This document shows, piece by piece, positions 7,609 through 59,096 of a stretch of DNA of 59,096 nt; position 1 is the first letter of the stretch, and every line of letters begins with the position of its first letter. Source of the stretch: Bacteroidales bacterium. GTDB taxonomy: Bacteria; Bacteroidota; Bacteroidia; Bacteroidales; WCHB1-69. The position numbers and the translations under genes are program-made. The DNA is taken from NCBI GenBank assembly GCA_017549765.1, contig JAFYNM010000016.1, positions 1-59,096 of the forward strand, given 5' to 3'. Under the pieces are notes generated by a model, which did no database searches, was not told where the DNA came from, and saw nothing but the letters and a program-made list of their open reading frames with translations.

Positions 7609-8280
7609 ATGAAAGAAGAAATGACAGTCACACCGCAATTCCCCGATTTCGGAGCGTTGCTGGAGTCGGTAAAAGAGAATGGCCGGCTCATGCGGGAAGA
7701 CCACGAACGTTATCGTCAGGCGATGGCGGAGCGCGAGGCCAAATGGGAAAAAGAAAAGGCAGAAAGGGATGCCAAATGGGAAAAGGAAAAAGCAGAGCGC
7801 GAGGCCAAATGGGAGAAAGACAGGGCAGACACGCGCCGGGCGATCCGGGAGATGAGGGAGTTGTTCACGACCCAGTGGGGCCGTCTGGTGGAGGCGTTGT
7901 GCAAACCGGCGGCATTGGCCCTGTTCAAGAAGGAAGGTGTCCAGATAGACCGCATATACGAGGGCATCCACAAGGCCAAGGTGGACGGCCAGGATGTGAT
8001 GGAGATAGATGTGGCCTTGTGTGACACGACGACCGCGGTGATCGTGGAGGTGAAGTCGCGGTGCGACAACCACGACATCGACTATTTTCTGAGCCAAATG
8101 GGGCATTGTAAGGAGTGGTATCCCGATTTTGCGAACAAGCAGCTGTATGTGGCGGTGGCGGCTATCGAATATGCCGGGGGCGCGGACACCTATGCGAGCC
8201 GTCAGGGATTGTATGTGTTGCAGCTTGGCGGCGAAGATACCTATACGATGACGGCGCCCAGAGAGGCGAGGACGTACTAG
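7609..8280 (+). CDS. PD-(D/E)XK nuclease-like protein with hendecad coiled coil, copy 1
   Basis: The protein has 223 residues. Residues 1-39 are variable-looking and helical. Residues 40-72 are three tandem 11-residue repeats of the form AEREAKWEKEK, a hendecad coiled coil. Residues 86-223 look like a PD-(D/E)XK fold of the DUF3782-like kind, with putative catalytic D134 (in EID) and E147-V-K149 (in VIVEVKS). No signal peptide or membrane segment is seen, so it is probably cytoplasmic. The gene is monocistronic, with its own promoter and heptamer arrays on both sides. A second copy at 19314-19919 is nearly identical but has only one hendecad unit. Nuclease activity is inferred from the motif only; the biological role is unknown. 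Confidence 0.8.
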   Translation: MKEEMTVTPQFPDFGALLESVKENGRLMREDHERYRQAMAEREAKWEKEKAERDAKWEKEKAEREAKWEKDRADTRRAIREMRELFTTQWGRLVEALCKPAALALFKKEGVQIDRIYEGIHKAKVDGQDVMEIDVALCDTTTAVIVEVKSRCDNHDIDYFLSQMGHCKEWYPDFANKQLYVAVAAIEYAGGADTYASRQGLYVLQLGGEDTYTMTAPREARTY

Positions 8281-19313: not shown

Positions 19314-19919
19314 ATGAAAGAAGAAATGACAGTCACACCGCAATTTCCCGATTTCGGAGCGTTGCTGGAGTCGGTGAAAGAGAATGGCCGGCTCATGCGG
19401 GAAGATCACGAACGTTATCGTCAGGCTATGGCAGAAAGGGATGCTAAATGGGAAAAAGACAGAGCAGACACCCGACGGGCGATCCGGGAGATGCGCGAGT
19501 TGTTCACGACCCAGTGGGACTGTCTTGTAGATGCATTGCGAAAACCTGCGTCATTGGCTCTGTTCGAGAAGGAGGGGATTCATGTTGACTACATATACGA
19601 GGGCATCCACAAGGCCAAGGTGGACGGCCAGGATGTGATGGAGATAGATGTGGCCTTGTGCGACACGACGGCCGCGGTGATTGTGGAGGTGAAGTCGCGG
19701 TGCGACAACCACGACATAGACCATTTCCTGAGCCAGATGGGGCATTGCAAGGAGTGGTATCCCGATTTTGCGAACAAGCAGCTGTATGTGGCGGTGGCGG
19801 CCATCGAATATGCCGGGGGCGCGGACACCTATGCGAACCGTCAGGGGTTGTATGTGTTGCAGCTCGGCGGCGAGGACACCTATACGATGACGGCGCCCCG
19901 GGAAGCGAAGACGTTCTAG
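19314..19919 (+). CDS. PD-(D/E)XK nuclease-like protein, copy 2 (single hendecad)
   Basis: The 201-residue protein is a near-identical paralogue of the protein at 7609-8280. The first 39 residues are the same. The coiled coil has one 11-residue unit (AERDAKWEKDR) instead of three, which accounts exactly for the 22-residue length difference. The putative catalytic EID and VEVKS motifs are kept. Differences cluster between about residues 70 and 95 (for example DALRKPASLALFEKEGIHVDYIYEG), while the last 100 residues are almost unchanged. The gene is single, sits divergently from uvrA and is flanked by inverted heptamer arrays. Function is unknown beyond the fold; presence of two preserved copies suggests recent duplication or repeated acquisition. 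Confidence 0.8.
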   Translation: MKEEMTVTPQFPDFGALLESVKENGRLMREDHERYRQAMAERDAKWEKDRADTRRAIREMRELFTTQWDCLVDALRKPASLALFEKEGIHVDYIYEGIHKAKVDGQDVMEIDVALCDTTAAVIVEVKSRCDNHDIDHFLSQMGHCKEWYPDFANKQLYVAVAAIEYAGGADTYANRQGLYVLQLGGEDTYTMTAPREAKTF

Positions 19920-51426: not shown

Positions 51427-52092
51427 TTACTTGTGCCAACCCATTCGTCTGCGAATATCTTGACAAACATCTTCAAAACGTTCTTGATCACGAATCCATG
51501 ACGGTAAATCTTTATCCATCCAACTTGTCACTATCAGTATTTCATCATGAATTGCCTCAACTTTTGACAGATTCCAACAGATGGGTTCGTTATGATAAAT
51601 TCTGTTTCTAAGTCGTCGAAATCTATTTAACGGTGATGATATAATCTTACGTTTGCGTAAAGGTTTGGGTAGGTGCGGAAATGCTCTTCTTAAGTCATGC
51701 CATAGCAGCGACTCATACTCGCTGTTCATCAAAGAAACCCAGAAACCAAAAGTTAATTCCGCCGTGATTTTCGAAGGTGTCGCCATTTCGTTGCGACTGG
51801 CTATTTTTTGCTTGGCATCTTCTATGTGCTGCTTGATGGAATGAAACATGGGATTTTCATAAAACAGTTGATACCATTGATGATTGTTGTTCAATCTGAT
51901 GAGTTCCTCAACTAATGCATTTCTAAGTGTAATTTCGAAAATAGATAAGCAAGGATATAATGATTCAGACAATGAAAGATTACAACGATAGTGCTCTTTA
52001 GCGAGGTCAGGATTGGTCTGATGGAGTGCGAAATATTTATTCATTCGCTCAGGAGAAAATTTTTTTTCGAAAAAAAGTCTGTCGTATTTCAT
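51427..52092 (-). CDS. Abi family protein (Abi_2/HEPN-like)
   Basis: The 221-residue protein is helical and matches the Abi-like family: MNKYFALHQTNPDLAKEHYRCNLSLSESLYPCLSIFEITLRNAL, then LTFGFWVSLM and a C-terminal R162-N-R-I-Y-H167-NE motif of the HEPN R-x4-H type. Abi_2 proteins such as AbiD/AbiF block phage growth; an RNase activity is inferred from the HEPN motif. The start at 52092 (MKYDRLF) is chosen over an in-frame GTG at 52110. The gene is AT-rich and sits between two GC-rich rhamnosidase genes, which points to insertion. Confidence 0.85.
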   Translation of the reverse strand: MKYDRLFFEKKFSPERMNKYFALHQTNPDLAKEHYRCNLSLSESLYPCLSIFEITLRNALVEELIRLNNNHQWYQLFYENPMFHSIKQHIEDAKQKIASRNEMATPSKITAELTFGFWVSLMNSEYESLLWHDLRRAFPHLPKPLRKRKIISSPLNRFRRLRNRIYHNEPICWNLSKVEAIHDEILIVTSWMDKDLPSWIRDQERFEDVCQDIRRRMGWHK

Positions 52093-52099
52093 ATTTTTA

Positions 52100-52107
52100 T
52101 ATTTTTG
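52100..52107 (+). promoter_or_regulatory. Plus-strand -7 element TATTTTTG facing the Abi leader
   Basis: TATTTTTG followed by CACC on the strand opposite to the Abi gene, eight bases before its ATG. It would drive a short transcript antisense to the Abi leader. No -33 box. Confidence 0.4.
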
Positions 52108-52112
52108 CACCG

Positions 52113-55084: not shown

Positions 55085-55092
55085 TACTTTTG
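55085..55092 (+). promoter_or_regulatory. -7 element TACTTTTG of the RyR/TIR cluster
   Basis: TACTTTTG followed by CGG, 41 bases before the first ATG (55134). It is divergent from the rhamnosidase promoter. No internal promoter is evident before the next three genes. Confidence 0.6.
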
Positions 55093-55133: not shown

Positions 55134-57275
55134 ATGTCTAACAAGAGAAATAATGTCAAGCTATTCCTCGACAGGGCGATGTCGCGCAGCTTCGGCCGGC
55201 AGATACTCATCCTGCTGGTTTTGTTTGTCGTCCTGCTGCTGATATCCTACCTGCTGCTCTCCTTCTCCGGTACTGACTGGAGAGCCTATTGTGCATACAA
55301 AGGCATCCCCGTATGGTCGTTGCCGTTGTTCCTGCTGATAGATACCAGCGCGTATAGCTATGTCTATTTTGGCGAGGGGACCCATGGATGGCTGCTGGTG
55401 GCCAGCGGTATCTCCTACGTCTTCGGTCTCATCATCTTCAACGGCATCATGATCGGTCTTATCACCAATGCCATCGACAATCGGGTGGATGCGCATCGCG
55501 ACGGCTTGCTGCACTACGTTAAGAGCGGCCACTACATCGTCATGGGCTATGATGACATGGTGCCGTCCATCATCACCGAGATATTTGCCAAGACGCCCAA
55601 AGCCGATGTGGTGCTGCTGTCAGCCCTGGATGCCAAACAGGTGCACGAGAAACTCCTCCGCTCCGTGGCCCGCGACAAGATGGACCAGATATTCATTGCC
55701 TATGGTCACAGGATGGTGAAAGATGCCTACCAGGATATCCATTTGGAGTCCGCTGAGGCTATCTATATCGTCGGCAATCGCACCAGACCGGAACATGACG
55801 CTATCAACGTGGAATGCGTGGATAACATCTATATGTATCTGACAGAGCACCCATTCAAGAAGATGCCGAAGCGGATAGTCTGTGTCTTCGAAGACTTTGA
55901 CACCTACGCTGCCTTCAAGACCACCGAGATATTCTCGCAGATCGGCACTCTGGGGGTTGAGTTCGTGCCGTATAACTTCTATGACGACTGGGCCACCCAG
56001 GTCTTTGTGCGCCGTTCCTATAAGGAGAAAAACAACGTGGCTGTGGAGATCCCGTATCCTTCGGTCTATGGCAAAGGGGTTCTCTATGAGGATGCGAAAC
56101 GGGTGCATCTCGTCTTTGTCGGTATCACGAACTTCTCCGTCTCCATGGCGATGCAGGCAGCGCATCTGCTGCATTTTCCCAACTTCAACCGCGACAAGTC
56201 GTTGCGTACCCGCATCACGTTCATCGAGAAGAATGCCGACGAGGAGATGCGCTTGTTCGCCACCCGCAACCGGCATTATTTCGAGGTCCAGCCCTTCTAC
56301 TACTGCGATATGTCGAAGGACGACGCGGCATATCTCCCTGTGAAAGTCGAGCAGCGTCTCTCCCGGGAGTTGCCGGACACAGACTTTCTGGACACCGAGT
56401 TTGAATTTATCAAAGGGGATGTCTATGCTGATGAGATCCAGGACCTCATCAAGAGCTGGGCGCAGGATGGGGAGCACGAGTATCTCTCCATCTTCGTCAC
56501 CCGAACCGACCAGCGCCAGAATTTCATGACAGGCGTGAACATGCCCGACGAGGTGTACGACCAGGCAGTGCCTGTCTTCATTCGTCAGGATCGTGCCGAC
56601 GACTTCGTCACCAACCTGCGGGCTGCCGACGACAAGGTATATGCCTACGGCAAGGTGGAAGAGGGAACGTTGGTGCAGGAGAACCGCCGACACCGTTATG
56701 CCAACATCTATCCTTTCGGCATGAATGACATGGCCTACCGTTCCGATGAGATCCCGCTGAAGCAAGCCAAGCTGTTGAACTACCTCTATGAAACTGCCGA
56801 CTACAGCACCTTCCATTTCACCAGTCTGGCAGACCTGGACGCCATGCCTGCCACTGCATTATGGGCCGATGCCGACCGCCGTTGGCAAGCCCTGACCGTG
56901 GCCAAAAAGTGGTCGAATCTCTATTGCGCATACAGCATCTCCTGCAAACTGGACACGCTGAGGGCCATGCGGGGAATGGCGCCCGATGACCACACACGAG
57001 ACCTCCAAGACCTCAGCGCCGAGGAGGTCGAGATGCTTGCCCGCGTGGAGCATAACCGTTGGAATACCGAGAAACTGCTGATGGGATTCCGCAAGCCCAA
57101 GCAGGCGGAGGACAAGTATGAGAACCCGTCCTACGACCGAGAACTGCAAAACAACAAGGAGTTGTTTGTCCATTATGATATTCGTCCATTTGAACAACTG
57201 CCCTCAGACGTGCGACAGCTGGATTATGAGATCTCGCAATATATCCCGTGGCTGTTGCGTATGACGACGAACTAA
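55134..57275 (+). CDS. Two-helix pore-like channel with RCK-like domains and C-terminal RyR domain
   Basis: The 713-residue protein has a basic N-terminus, TM1 (about 23-43), a semi-hydrophobic loop (about 60-80, SLPLFLLIDTSAYSYVYFG) and TM2 (about 88-112, ending ITNAIDNRVD). The loop-between-two-helices layout resembles K+ channel and CASTOR/POLLUX-type pores, but no TVGYG filter is seen, so ion selectivity is unknown. Residues 130-600 contain Rossmann-like RCK/TrkA-N-type segments (HYIVMGYDDMVPSIITEIF, AIYIVGNRTRPEHDAINVECV, VHLVFVGITNFSVSMAMQAA). About residues 635-700 form a RyR domain (MLARVEHNRWNTEKLLMGF, then VHYDIRPFEQLPSDVRQLDYE). I infer a ligand-gated membrane effector. Three genes follow at 13, 21 and 29 base gaps. 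Confidence 0.82.
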   Translation: MSNKRNNVKLFLDRAMSRSFGRQILILLVLFVVLLLISYLLLSFSGTDWRAYCAYKGIPVWSLPLFLLIDTSAYSYVYFGEGTHGWLLVASGISYVFGLIIFNGIMIGLITNAIDNRVDAHRDGLLHYVKSGHYIVMGYDDMVPSIITEIFAKTPKADVVLLSALDAKQVHEKLLRSVARDKMDQIFIAYGHRMVKDAYQDIHLESAEAIYIVGNRTRPEHDAINVECVDNIYMYLTEHPFKKMPKRIVCVFEDFDTYAAFKTTEIFSQIGTLGVEFVPYNFYDDWATQVFVRRSYKEKNNVAVEIPYPSVYGKGVLYEDAKRVHLVFVGITNFSVSMAMQAAHLLHFPNFNRDKSLRTRITFIEKNADEEMRLFATRNRHYFEVQPFYYCDMSKDDAAYLPVKVEQRLSRELPDTDFLDTEFEFIKGDVYADEIQDLIKSWAQDGEHEYLSIFVTRTDQRQNFMTGVNMPDEVYDQAVPVFIRQDRADDFVTNLRAADDKVYAYGKVEEGTLVQENRRHRYANIYPFGMNDMAYRSDEIPLKQAKLLNYLYETADYSTFHFTSLADLDAMPATALWADADRRWQALTVAKKWSNLYCAYSISCKLDTLRAMRGMAPDDHTRDLQDLSAEEVEMLARVEHNRWNTEKLLMGFRKPKQAEDKYENPSYDRELQNNKELFVHYDIRPFEQLPSDVRQLDYEISQYIPWLLRMTTN

Positions 57276-57288
57276 AACCTTAACAACG

Positions 57289-57588
57289 ATGAATAGACCC
57301 CCCCATATACCGATATCTGTCGATACCTCCCATGTGGAACTGCCCGAAGAACTGCAGGCTGTCGCCGAGCAGATGGCTGAGCATGTCCACGAGGTGTGGG
57401 CGGCCGCGCGTGTCGCCCAAGGCTGGACCTACGGTCCCGAGCGCAATGATGCCAGCAAGAAGCATCCTTGTCTCGTCCCCTACGACCAGCTGTCAGAGGA
57501 GGAGAAGGCCTATGACCGGGAGACCAGCACTGAGACGCTGAAGTTTTTGATGGTCAGCGGCTTTGAGATAGTCCCTAAACACAAATAA
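57289..57588 (+). CDS. Stand-alone RyR-domain protein
   Basis: The 99-residue protein is essentially one RyR domain: MAEHVHEVWAAARVAQGWTYG, then KHPCLVPYDQLSEEEKAYDRETSTETLKFLMVSGFEI, covering residues 20-95. These are the conserved His-x-x-Trp, GW-x-YG and LVPYxxLxxxEKxYDR features of the ryanodine-receptor repeat domain. No signal or membrane segment is present. Its position between a RyR-tailed channel and a TIR protein suggests a soluble adaptor, ligand sink or regulator; the ligand of bacterial RyR domains is not established as far as I know. Confidence 0.9.
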   Translation: MNRPPHIPISVDTSHVELPEELQAVAEQMAEHVHEVWAAARVAQGWTYGPERNDASKKHPCLVPYDQLSEEEKAYDRETSTETLKFLMVSGFEIVPKHK

Positions 57589-57609
57589 TCAATTGGAGCC
57601 CTTTTTCTT

Positions 57610-58740
57610 ATGGAGCAGCAGTATAAATATTTTGCCTTTATCAGCTATAACTCCCATGATCTGAAGTGGGGGAAGTGCCTGCAGAAGAAGCTGGAGCACT
57701 ACCGTATGCCGGCCACCTTGTGTAGCGAGCGCGGCTGGAAGCGTACGCCCATCCAGCCGGTCTTCTTCGCGCCTACCGACATCCAGCCGGGTGGCCTCTC
57801 TCAGGAGCTGCAGGAGCGGCTGAAGGCTTCCCGCCACCTGGTGGTGATCTGCTCGCCCCATTCGGCCAAGTCGGAGTGGGTGGGCCGCGAGATAGCCTTC
57901 TTCCACCAGCTGGGCAGAACCCGGGATATCCACTTCTTCATCGTGGAGGGCGAACCCCATAGCGGCGACCCCGACACGGAATGCTTCAACCCCATGGTGG
58001 AGACGCTGGGACTGCCGGAAATCCTCGCCGCCAACATCCATGAGGACGTACACCGCATCTCCTATCTGAACCGTGAGCGGGCCTACGTGCAACTTGTCTC
58101 CAAGCTGTTGGATGTGGAGTTCGACGCGATATGGAAACGCCACCGCCGACAGCTCATCCGTAAGGCCATTGCCTGGGTGCTCGGAATACTCGTCGTGCTC
58201 GCGGCGCTGGTCGGCGTATGGCGCCAGGGCCTGCCCGTGGATGTGGCCCTGCGGGTGAATGAGGTCTCGGACTATAATGCCAACCTGCCGGAGTTGCAGG
58301 ATGCCGTGGTGACGCTGGCCCTTCCCAACAAGACCGAAACGGACACCCTCCGGACAATGGACGGGAGGGTGGTCTTCCGCAATATCCCCCACAAGTATCT
58401 TGACAAGCCGGTGCACGTGACTGTCTCCTGCCGCGACTTCCTGACCACCGACACGACGGTGGTGCTGGCTGAGACGGTGACGGTGAATGTGGCCCGCGAC
58501 CCGGCAGTCTATGGCGACATCCGTTTCCGGATCTACGACCCGCAGACGGAACAATACCTGTCGGGTGTGGAGGTCTTGATAGAGGGCCAGACCGTGTGGT
58601 CGGACGAGACAGGACTGGTCACGCTGACTATCCCCTTGGCTGCACAGAAGAAGACCTATCCCATCATGGCATCTATCCCGCTGCATGAGGACAGTCTCTA
58701 TCTGCCCTGCGGCGACACCTATTGCATTTTCAGACAATAA
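57610..58740 (+). CDS. Membrane-anchored TIR-domain protein
   Basis: The 376-residue protein has an N-terminal TIR domain (about 5-165): KYFAFISYNSHDLKWGKCLQ, the RPxFxD-like PVFFAPTDI loop, VICSPHSAKSEW and the catalytic WxxxE pair W90/E94 (EWVGREIAFF). A single membrane helix follows (about 186-204, AIAWVLGILVVLAALVGVW) after a basic stretch (WKRHRRQLIRK), placing the TIR domain in the cytoplasm. The last 170 residues are beta-rich Ig/carboxypeptidase-regulatory-like modules predicted periplasmic. Bacterial TIR domains with this Glu cleave NAD+ or make cyclic ADP-ribose isomers. I infer a signalling enzyme or NAD-depleting effector with a periplasmic sensing part. Confidence 0.92.
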   Translation: MEQQYKYFAFISYNSHDLKWGKCLQKKLEHYRMPATLCSERGWKRTPIQPVFFAPTDIQPGGLSQELQERLKASRHLVVICSPHSAKSEWVGREIAFFHQLGRTRDIHFFIVEGEPHSGDPDTECFNPMVETLGLPEILAANIHEDVHRISYLNRERAYVQLVSKLLDVEFDAIWKRHRRQLIRKAIAWVLGILVVLAALVGVWRQGLPVDVALRVNEVSDYNANLPELQDAVVTLALPNKTETDTLRTMDGRVVFRNIPHKYLDKPVHVTVSCRDFLTTDTTVVLAETVTVNVARDPAVYGDIRFRIYDPQTEQYLSGVEVLIEGQTVWSDETGLVTLTIPLAAQKKTYPIMASIPLHEDSLYLPCGDTYCIFRQ

Positions 58741-58769
58741 TTTATCGTCATATCATTGTTGCGATTATT

Positions 58770-59096
58770 ATGAAACGATTTATACTCACCGTCATAGTAA
58801 GCATAGCCGCCATCACGATGGTCTCAGCGCAGACCACCCAGAAGGGCTATGTGAAGACCAAGGGACGGCTGGACAGCAAAGGGCAGCTGATCCCCGGCCA
58901 GCGCATCGCCAGTGCGGCCATCCAGCTGACGGGCGGCCATTCCACCGTGAGCGATGCCAACGGCAACTTCACCCTGACGGTGCCCGACAAGAAATTCTTC
59001 CTGAGCGACGTGCGGAAGCAGGGCTATGTGCTCTCCGACCCCGACGTGCTGAAGAAACAGTATGCCTGCTCCTCCAACCCGCTGGTGATCACGATG
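58770..59096 (+). CDS. Secreted protein with carboxypeptidase-regulatory-like domain (3' partial)
   Basis: The ATG at 58770 opens a frame that runs past the window end, 109 codons visible. A signal peptide (MKRFILTVIVSIAAITMVSAQ) precedes a beta-sandwich module (ASAAIQLTGGHSTVSDANGNFTLTVPD) and a KQGYVLSDPDVLKKQYACSSNPLVITM segment. Similar Bacteroidota proteins carry TPR repeats further on, but that part is outside the window. It starts 29 bases after the TIR gene on the same strand, so it is probably the fourth member of the cluster and may act in the periplasm with the TIR protein's outer domain. Confidence 0.85.
   Translation, partial: MKRFILTVIVSIAAITMVSAQTTQKGYVKTKGRLDSKGQLIPGQRIASAAIQLTGGHSTVSDANGNFTLTVPDKKFFLSDVRKQGYVLSDPDVLKKQYACSSNPLVITM

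Follow-up and report, generated by a model that had tools for sequence, protein, structure and literature searches.

A candidate TIR–RyR–channel signaling operon built around a CASTOR/POLLUX-like channel in Bacteroidales

Could a bacterial TIR domain protein address a membrane channel through the domain that animal ryanodine receptors (RyRs) carry in repeats? This question is raised by four genes, here termed A, B, C and D, at the right end of a contig of 59,096 bases from a Bacteroidales bacterium (JAFYNM010000016.1 in assembly GCA_017549765.1, contig C6 of a draft genome of 2.45 Mb), which was analyzed over its whole length and is henceforth called the window. All four are on the forward strand, with gaps of 13, 21 and 29 bases, as an earlier sequence-only reading of the window had reported, and they code for: a protein of 713 amino acids (aa) predicted to combine a CASTOR/POLLUX-like channel, an RCK region and a C-terminal RyR domain (A, 55134-57275); a free RyR domain of the R12 type (B, 57289-57588, 99 aa); a protein with a TIR domain, one hydrophobic stretch and a C-terminal part (C, 57610-58740, 376 aa); and a probable exported partner (D, 58770-59096). 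Since the window is an entire contig, D is cut at its end, leaving the first 109 aa. We lean, by a modest degree, toward the view that these genes form a signaling operon, in which a nucleotide made by the TIR domain would be read by a pair of RyR domains and the channel gated in response.

The protein A, previously described as pore-like, can now be placed more precisely. A profile of 53 A proteins (that of the window and 52 from the best 80 of 225 loci with A relatives) aligns over positions 6-259 of A with a set of 16 bacterial CASTOR/POLLUX-like channels at a probability of 98.9 and E 1.2e-17 in hhalign; 17 such channels had been fetched, and one (L183) was omitted as its start differed. 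The A model likewise matches all 16 of these channels (2e-11 to 2e-21). By hydropathy, the pore region (55176-55478) consists of hydrophobic stretches at aa 15-49 and 84-115 with a pore loop between them, which bears the presumed selectivity filter residue D70 (55341-55343), kept in 53/53 A proteins. It is followed by an RCK1-like stretch (aa 131-224, 55524-55805) recognized by Pfam and profile matches, the Pfam match of the window's A being to Slo-like_RCK at E 0.0012, below the cut-off. Against the PDB the A profile returned 13 matches, all of them cation channels and none significant (E 0.27-0.98), namely TrkA-domain channels, DMI1, CASTOR and nine two-pore channel sequences. Castor_Poll_mid (PF06241) found no match in the window's own genome, nor in the 53 A proteins at E 0.1, and PHROGs offered no family for either A or C. 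By sequence comparison, A is a relative of the CASTOR/POLLUX channels that lies outside that family as Pfam defines it. It resembles the plant nuclear Ca2+ channels CASTOR, POLLUX and DMI1 in having a pore followed by RCK, no TVGYG filter and a filter aspartate; according to the accessible text of PMC6697748, the predicted filter of CASTOR is AD265S(A)GNHA, and the D265N mutation abolishes its activity. Unlike these channels, A has two predicted helices, an RyR tail and TIR partners. Its interpretation as an ordinary K+ channel was rejected, as a TVGYG-like motif is missing from the pore loop and CASTOR-like channels give the nearest profile match. In named genomes, the proteins most similar to A (91-92% identity) come mostly from rumen and omasum Bacteroidales assemblies, and the complete genome of Prevotella communis E15-14 is among those with an A relative.

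The second component is the RyR domain itself. B is an unambiguous member of the RyR family (PF02026, E 2.8e-36, 124.1 bits versus a cut-off of 27.4), matching in the PDB repeats of RyR1, RyR2 and RyR3 along with bacterial "putative ryanodine receptor" chains (e.g., 3nrt), and in PHROGs three families of unknown function. It is in this R12-type domain only that the system resembles the animal ryanodine receptors by sequence, the channel of A being of the CASTOR type. The RyR tail which the sequence-only reading had seen in A (aa 627-713, 57012-57272) held up in part: when 17 A tails were aligned to 19 B proteins by hhalign, the probabilities were 89.6-95.9%, varying with direction and settings, and four characteristic residues are kept, but Pfam does not report the tail in the window's A. 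The significance of these four residues stems from phage RyR domains shown to bind the 2′ or 3′ isomers of cyclic ADP-ribose (cADPR): in the accessible part of a 2026 preprint, the phage protein RyDEP does so via a His, a Trp, a His and an Asp (PMC13232231). The equivalents in B (H34, W37, H59 and D76) are kept in 52, 52, 47 and 49 of 52 aligned B-type domains, and those in the A tail (H640, W643, H680 and D697) in 53, 52, 52 and 52 of 53. Hence, with the four residues kept, the operon has two RyR domains with predicted ligand sites intact, one free and one on the channel, and by analogy these could pair as the R12 repeats do.

Retention of the same residues also invites a different account of B, namely that it is an RyDEP-like glycosidase or a sponge which destroys or buffers the TIR signal and thereby ends it, leaving only the A tail to gate the channel. 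The two residues of the RyDEP catalytic dyad are present in B (H34 and D76), and RyDEP is itself a small, free RyR protein (PMC13232231). However, in the same accessible text, other tested RyDEP homologs had the conserved residues and yet showed no signal cleavage; thus, ligand residues cannot tell binding from cleavage, and the dyad is uninformative in this regard. We regard this account as unlikely. Variant RyR architectures were also encountered: a frame of 192 aa in which a shortened B domain precedes an A-type RyR tail, with a C fragment nearby, which is either a fusion or a remnant (L045, 7342-7920); and, immediately upstream of A in Bacteroides faecalis (L149, 7337-7954) and B. bouchesdurhonensis (L155, 7031-7690), RyR domains joined to hydrophobic stretches.

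The putative source of the signal is C. Its N-terminal TIR domain (approximately 57610-58149) matches the Pfam families TIR_2 (E 1.3e-9) and ThsB_TIR (E 1.8e-6, 28.7 bits versus a cut-off of 21.2), and the PADLOC ThsB models weakly (best E 1.2e-4); searched against the PDB, the single sequence gave nothing at E 0.1, and the C profile gave weak matches (best E 0.0082), for the most part to Toll-like receptor chains. E94 (57889-57891) occupies the position of the catalytic glutamate and, together with W90, S12 and D17, is kept in 16/16 C proteins; by its place in the alignment it would be necessary, though not sufficient, for NADase activity. A hydrophobic stretch (aa 181-210, 58150-58239, by hydropathy) follows, with a basic segment before it. 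By the positive-inside rule, a basic segment that precedes a membrane helix lies on the cytoplasmic side, which would put the TIR domain in the cytoplasm and the C-terminal part presumably in the periplasm. The free RyR domain and the membrane TIR protein of the sequence-only reading are thus both recovered. As for D, the final 127 bases of the window are found again where the reverse complement of another contig of the same genome (C9, 9,130 bases) begins, and the gene continues there to a total of 682 aa by coordinates. It starts with a signal-peptide-like stretch (by hydropathy) and a weak CarboxypepD_reg-like match, and the full-length D of a relative is a TPR protein; D is probably an exported TPR protein.

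The gene content, the domain identities, the kept ligand-site and filter residues and the conserved association detailed below are properties of the sequences. Upon these we infer a direction of signaling, a ligand, a B–A pairing, a mode of gating, an ion and a biological purpose, as follows: D and the presumed periplasmic part of C would sense an envelope or infection cue, whereupon the cytoplasmic TIR domain of C would convert NAD+ to an ADP-ribose-type nucleotide, such as 2′ or 3′ cADPR or a relative. This would be bound by the RyR domain of B and that of the A tail, probably paired like two repeats of the animal R12 domain; the RCK region would relay the binding to the CASTOR/POLLUX-like cation pore, and its opening might depolarize the cell or admit cations, so that growth or infection stops. 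The role in phage defense that such a scheme implies is likewise a supposition. The scheme parallels Thoeris in its TM-macro and SIR2-SLOG types, where an ADP-ribose-type signal that a TIR protein makes from NAD+ is read by a partner; in the TM-macro type this partner is a membrane protein proposed to perturb the membrane (PMC11204291, accessible text). In contrast to Thoeris, the proposed reader is an RyR domain rather than a macro or SLOG domain, the effector would be a channel with pore and RCK, and C carries a membrane helix and is accompanied by a probably exported TPR protein. ThsA of either type (SIR2-SLOG or TM-macro) has no PADLOC match at E 0.1 in A, B, C or the first 109 aa of D; since no ThsA is found, the operon is not Thoeris as usually defined.

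Is the association of these genes conserved? Among 60 genomes, comprising the window's own and related ones, in which matches were counted at E 0.001, RyR is present in 20, TIR_2 in 30 and A in 18. The own genome has exactly one RyR and one TIR_2 match; because these two sole matches are neighbors, their adjacency in the operon is not a matter of chance. The 60 genomes hold 24 RyR places, with TIR_2 within 0.5 kb of 12 and within 4 kb of 16, most of the 12 being the same operon in related species. Within the genus (36 genomes, own included), TIR occurs in 14/14 RyR carriers versus 4/22 others (Fisher p 1.6e-6, kinship ignored). The complete A-B-C-D set in the same order recurs in 9/19 other loci around the RyR matches of relatives (tblastn), a tenth (L028) being cut by a contig end. 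For the named genomes, the best 80 of 225 A relatives were fetched; the four genes are consecutive in 11/80 of these loci (L077-L086 and L090), while L076 is cut inside C, three (L100, L109 and L111) have all four kinds of genes in another order or with an intervening gene, and B is missing from L092, which has A, D and C. The 19-locus and 80-locus sets share assemblies. The genes are therefore conserved together in both sets, and the TIR–RyR–channel association put forward by the sequence-only reading gains support from this conservation as well as from the control set, gene fusions and module swapping described below.

A wider count, within 6 kb of A in the 80 loci, finds another RyR in 49, a TIR in 40 and both in 31; within the same-strand run containing A, the figures are 46, 38 and 28. 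The TIR count uses two models of our own, of which TIRg was built from 21 of the very neighbors counted. In Pfam, TIR_2 is the commonest family among unassigned same-strand neighbors within two genes of A (17/136), joined by TIR (10), TerB (10), TPR families, CHAT (5) and nSTAND1 (3). PADLOC models most often recognize these neighbors as PDC-S66 and SAVED-TIR (12 each), Aga_TIR and ThsB. The other TIR neighbors of A are of several kinds, including a macro-TIR fusion (L134). Two further neighbors deserve mention: a protein of approximately 100-200 aa lies directly upstream of A in 16 loci (e.g., L122, 7607-8017, and L139, 7532-8005; the one scanned had no Pfam match), and a gene of the NadA family of NAD synthesis adjoins A in L096 (4016-5065) and L108 (3141-4190), if these are the two NadA matches, perhaps by chance.

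Proximity to TIR genes could alternatively be a general trait of CASTOR-like channels. As a control, 16 RyR-less CASTOR-like channels from other classes of the same phylum were searched over approximately 6 kb on each side with the same models at E 1e-3, and yielded TIR in 0/16 and RyR in 0/16 loci, compared with 40/80 (Fisher p 1.2e-4) and 49/80 (Fisher p 2.3e-6) for A. In addition, TIR_2 is outside the 25 commonest Pfam families of the 128 genes within four genes of the control channels (at most 2/128 are possible). A general trait is not supported by these controls, all of which belong to other classes of the phylum. Within the limits of 16 loci, the TIR link would be a property of the RyR-tailed channel and not of the channel family as such. 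Chance as the cause was also considered: 65 TIR_2 matches over 60 genomes (approximately 174 Mb) give a random expectation of 0.4/80 loci with a TIR within 6 kb, versus the 40 seen, a rough ratio inasmuch as the detection models differ (Pfam TIR_2 versus our own two) and relatives are not independent.

The linkage extends beyond this operon. As an independent ARRANGEMENTS, 395 genomes drawn evenly from the phylum were searched, and 27 of them, the window's own among these, have RyR matches. In three further lineages (G072, G275 and G061), TrkA_N and RyR are joined in one polypeptide and a TIR gene is directly beside it, overlapping by 11 bases, 4 bases apart and 23 bases apart, respectively (TIR_2 at 2.8e-15, 7e-17 and 5.6e-10). 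These TrkA_N-RyR proteins have hydrophobic N-terminal stretches and, by eye, a second RyR-like copy where Pfam reports one; such fusion of RyR to the channel suits gating by a pair and argues against B as a destroyer of the signal. The arrangement recurs, with a short TIR frame (TIR_2 3.2e-13), in G093, a genome from the genus of G072. A further stretch, from G155, has no RyR by our own model.

In other relatives the RyR domain is kept while the presumed output appears to change. Two genomes of the same genus as the window's (G017, L199 688-5530; G031, L200 4647-9505) have a C-type TIR and a D-type TPR gene with no A beside them, preceded by a small sigma-factor-like gene and then a gene for a protein with a C-terminal RyR; G031 carries an A on another contig. 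The small gene resembles an ECF sigma factor by eye, and a similar gene in L139 has no sigma match in Pfam. In G037 (L040, 5887-10857), an MscS beta-domain protein is found with a protein like the C-terminal part of A, B and two D-like genes. The A-like protein has no hydrophobic stretches in the alignment; the pore seems to have been exchanged.

These configurations bear on the possibility that the signal runs in reverse, with the RyR-RCK channel sensing ions or adenine nucleotides (ATP, ADP-ribose or the NAD state) and the TIR acting as an NADase executioner or independently. RCK domains of known channels bind ions or nucleotides, and many bacterial TIRs are NAD-depleting effectors. Furthermore, the R12 domain of human RyR3 binds AMP-PCP, per the accessible part of PMC13232231. 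However, the RyR–TIR pairing recurs without an adjoining channel (L199 and L200) and with several kinds of TIR, which better suits a common signal than a common killer, and we hold the reversed direction to be decidedly improbable.

Instead of acting in immunity, the operon could also maintain envelope or osmotic homeostasis, with this signal or a different one. The flanking genes in the window look metabolic, the C-terminal part of C and D point to the envelope, and in G037 a mechanosensitive-channel protein is beside the RyR genes. On the other hand, A and RyR have a patchy presence (18/60 and 20/60 genomes, own included), the neighbors of A match TIR, CHAT and nSTAND1 in Pfam and PADLOC TIR models such as ThsB, and phages carry B-like RyR domains. 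On balance, we consider a homeostatic role quite unlikely.

Several observations weigh against a TIR-to-RyR-to-channel circuit. TLR2 shares the glutamate at the same place in the alignment, so E94 is no proof of NADase activity. Animal TLR2 is not known to be an NADase. In most A proteins the RyR tail falls below threshold, PF02026 being matched by 7/53 (best E 0.0019). The count of 40/80 loci with a TIR is partly circular through the TIRg model, which does not apply to the Pfam neighbor count. No TIR is present within 6 kb in 40/80 A loci, of which 11 lie close to a contig end, and no other RyR in 31/80. G148 has an A-like RyR protein with no TIR detected. Lastly, 20 genomes of one other genus carry RyR in an ATPase-like protein, and the 17 loci inspected there (L204-L220) have no TIR among the two genes on either side. 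The ATPase-like protein of that genus has two RyR stretches in L048.

The RyR domain is also found in viruses. In IMG/VR, 19 contigs, some near duplicates, encode a B-like RyR, with all four residues in 15/19; B also matches 249 records of the GenBank phage set, and nine of these matches cover at least 80% of B. In two of the contigs (L159, 5998-10250, and L163, 4862-7286) the RyR gene has, no more than 0.5 kb away, a neighbor of the isochorismatase family that by eye looks like a nicotinamidase; a YspA-type SLOG domain is found within 3 kb, in L159 fused to a reverse transcriptase. This NAD-related setting is reminiscent of RyDEP, which is reported to occur within an NAD+-restoring operon (PMC13232231, accessible part). 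The operon shares with RyDEP the RyR/R12 family (PF02026) and the four ligand residues; unlike that phage anti-Thoeris protein, which degrades or sequesters the signal, its RyR domains are cellular, beside a TIR and on a channel. We tentatively propose, somewhat short of even confidence, that, in Bacteroidota, RyR acts as a general receiver for ADP-ribose signals made by TIRs, wired alternatively to a CASTOR-like channel, a mechanosensitive-type channel or a transcription switch, and that the free RyR domains of Bacteroidales phages soak up or destroy this signal.

If true, this would constitute a counterpart in bacteria, and perhaps a precursor, of the cADPR–ryanodine receptor axis of animals; it would provide TIR signaling with a receiver (RyR) and an effector (a channel that includes an RCK region) that are both new; and it would give a reason why phages carry RyR proteins. 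It would also supply a tractable bacterial system for the old question of whether cADPR-type nucleotides act on ryanodine receptors via R12. The steps are testable with small domains (B has 99 aa), and A relatives occur in named genomes. Full-text searches of the literature, with most subscription papers outside their coverage, found no cellular TIR–RyR–channel system among the papers listed; the accessible part of the RyDEP preprint describes no such operon (PMC13232231), and "RyR" and "ryanodine" are absent from the main texts of PMC7159879 and PMC9503650.

Regarding the surroundings, the flanks of the window hold no evident defense island; an Abi_2-like gene on the reverse strand (51427-52110; PF07751, E 5.1e-5, 24.1 bits, under the cut-off of 25.6) is located approximately 3 kb upstream of A, with one gene between them. 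A scan of the window for sigma-70 promoters and terminators gave nothing useful, and an NCBIfam scan no match above a curated cut-off. By eye, TACTTTTG (55085-55092, forward strand) resembles the Bacteroidota −7 promoter element, the consensus of which is TAnnTTTG. A frame of 382 aa on the reverse strand opposite C (57589-58737) was set aside as a mirror frame. Elsewhere in the window, two forward-strand genes (7609-8280, without a Pfam match, and 19314-19919) are nearly identical in their N-terminal sequence.

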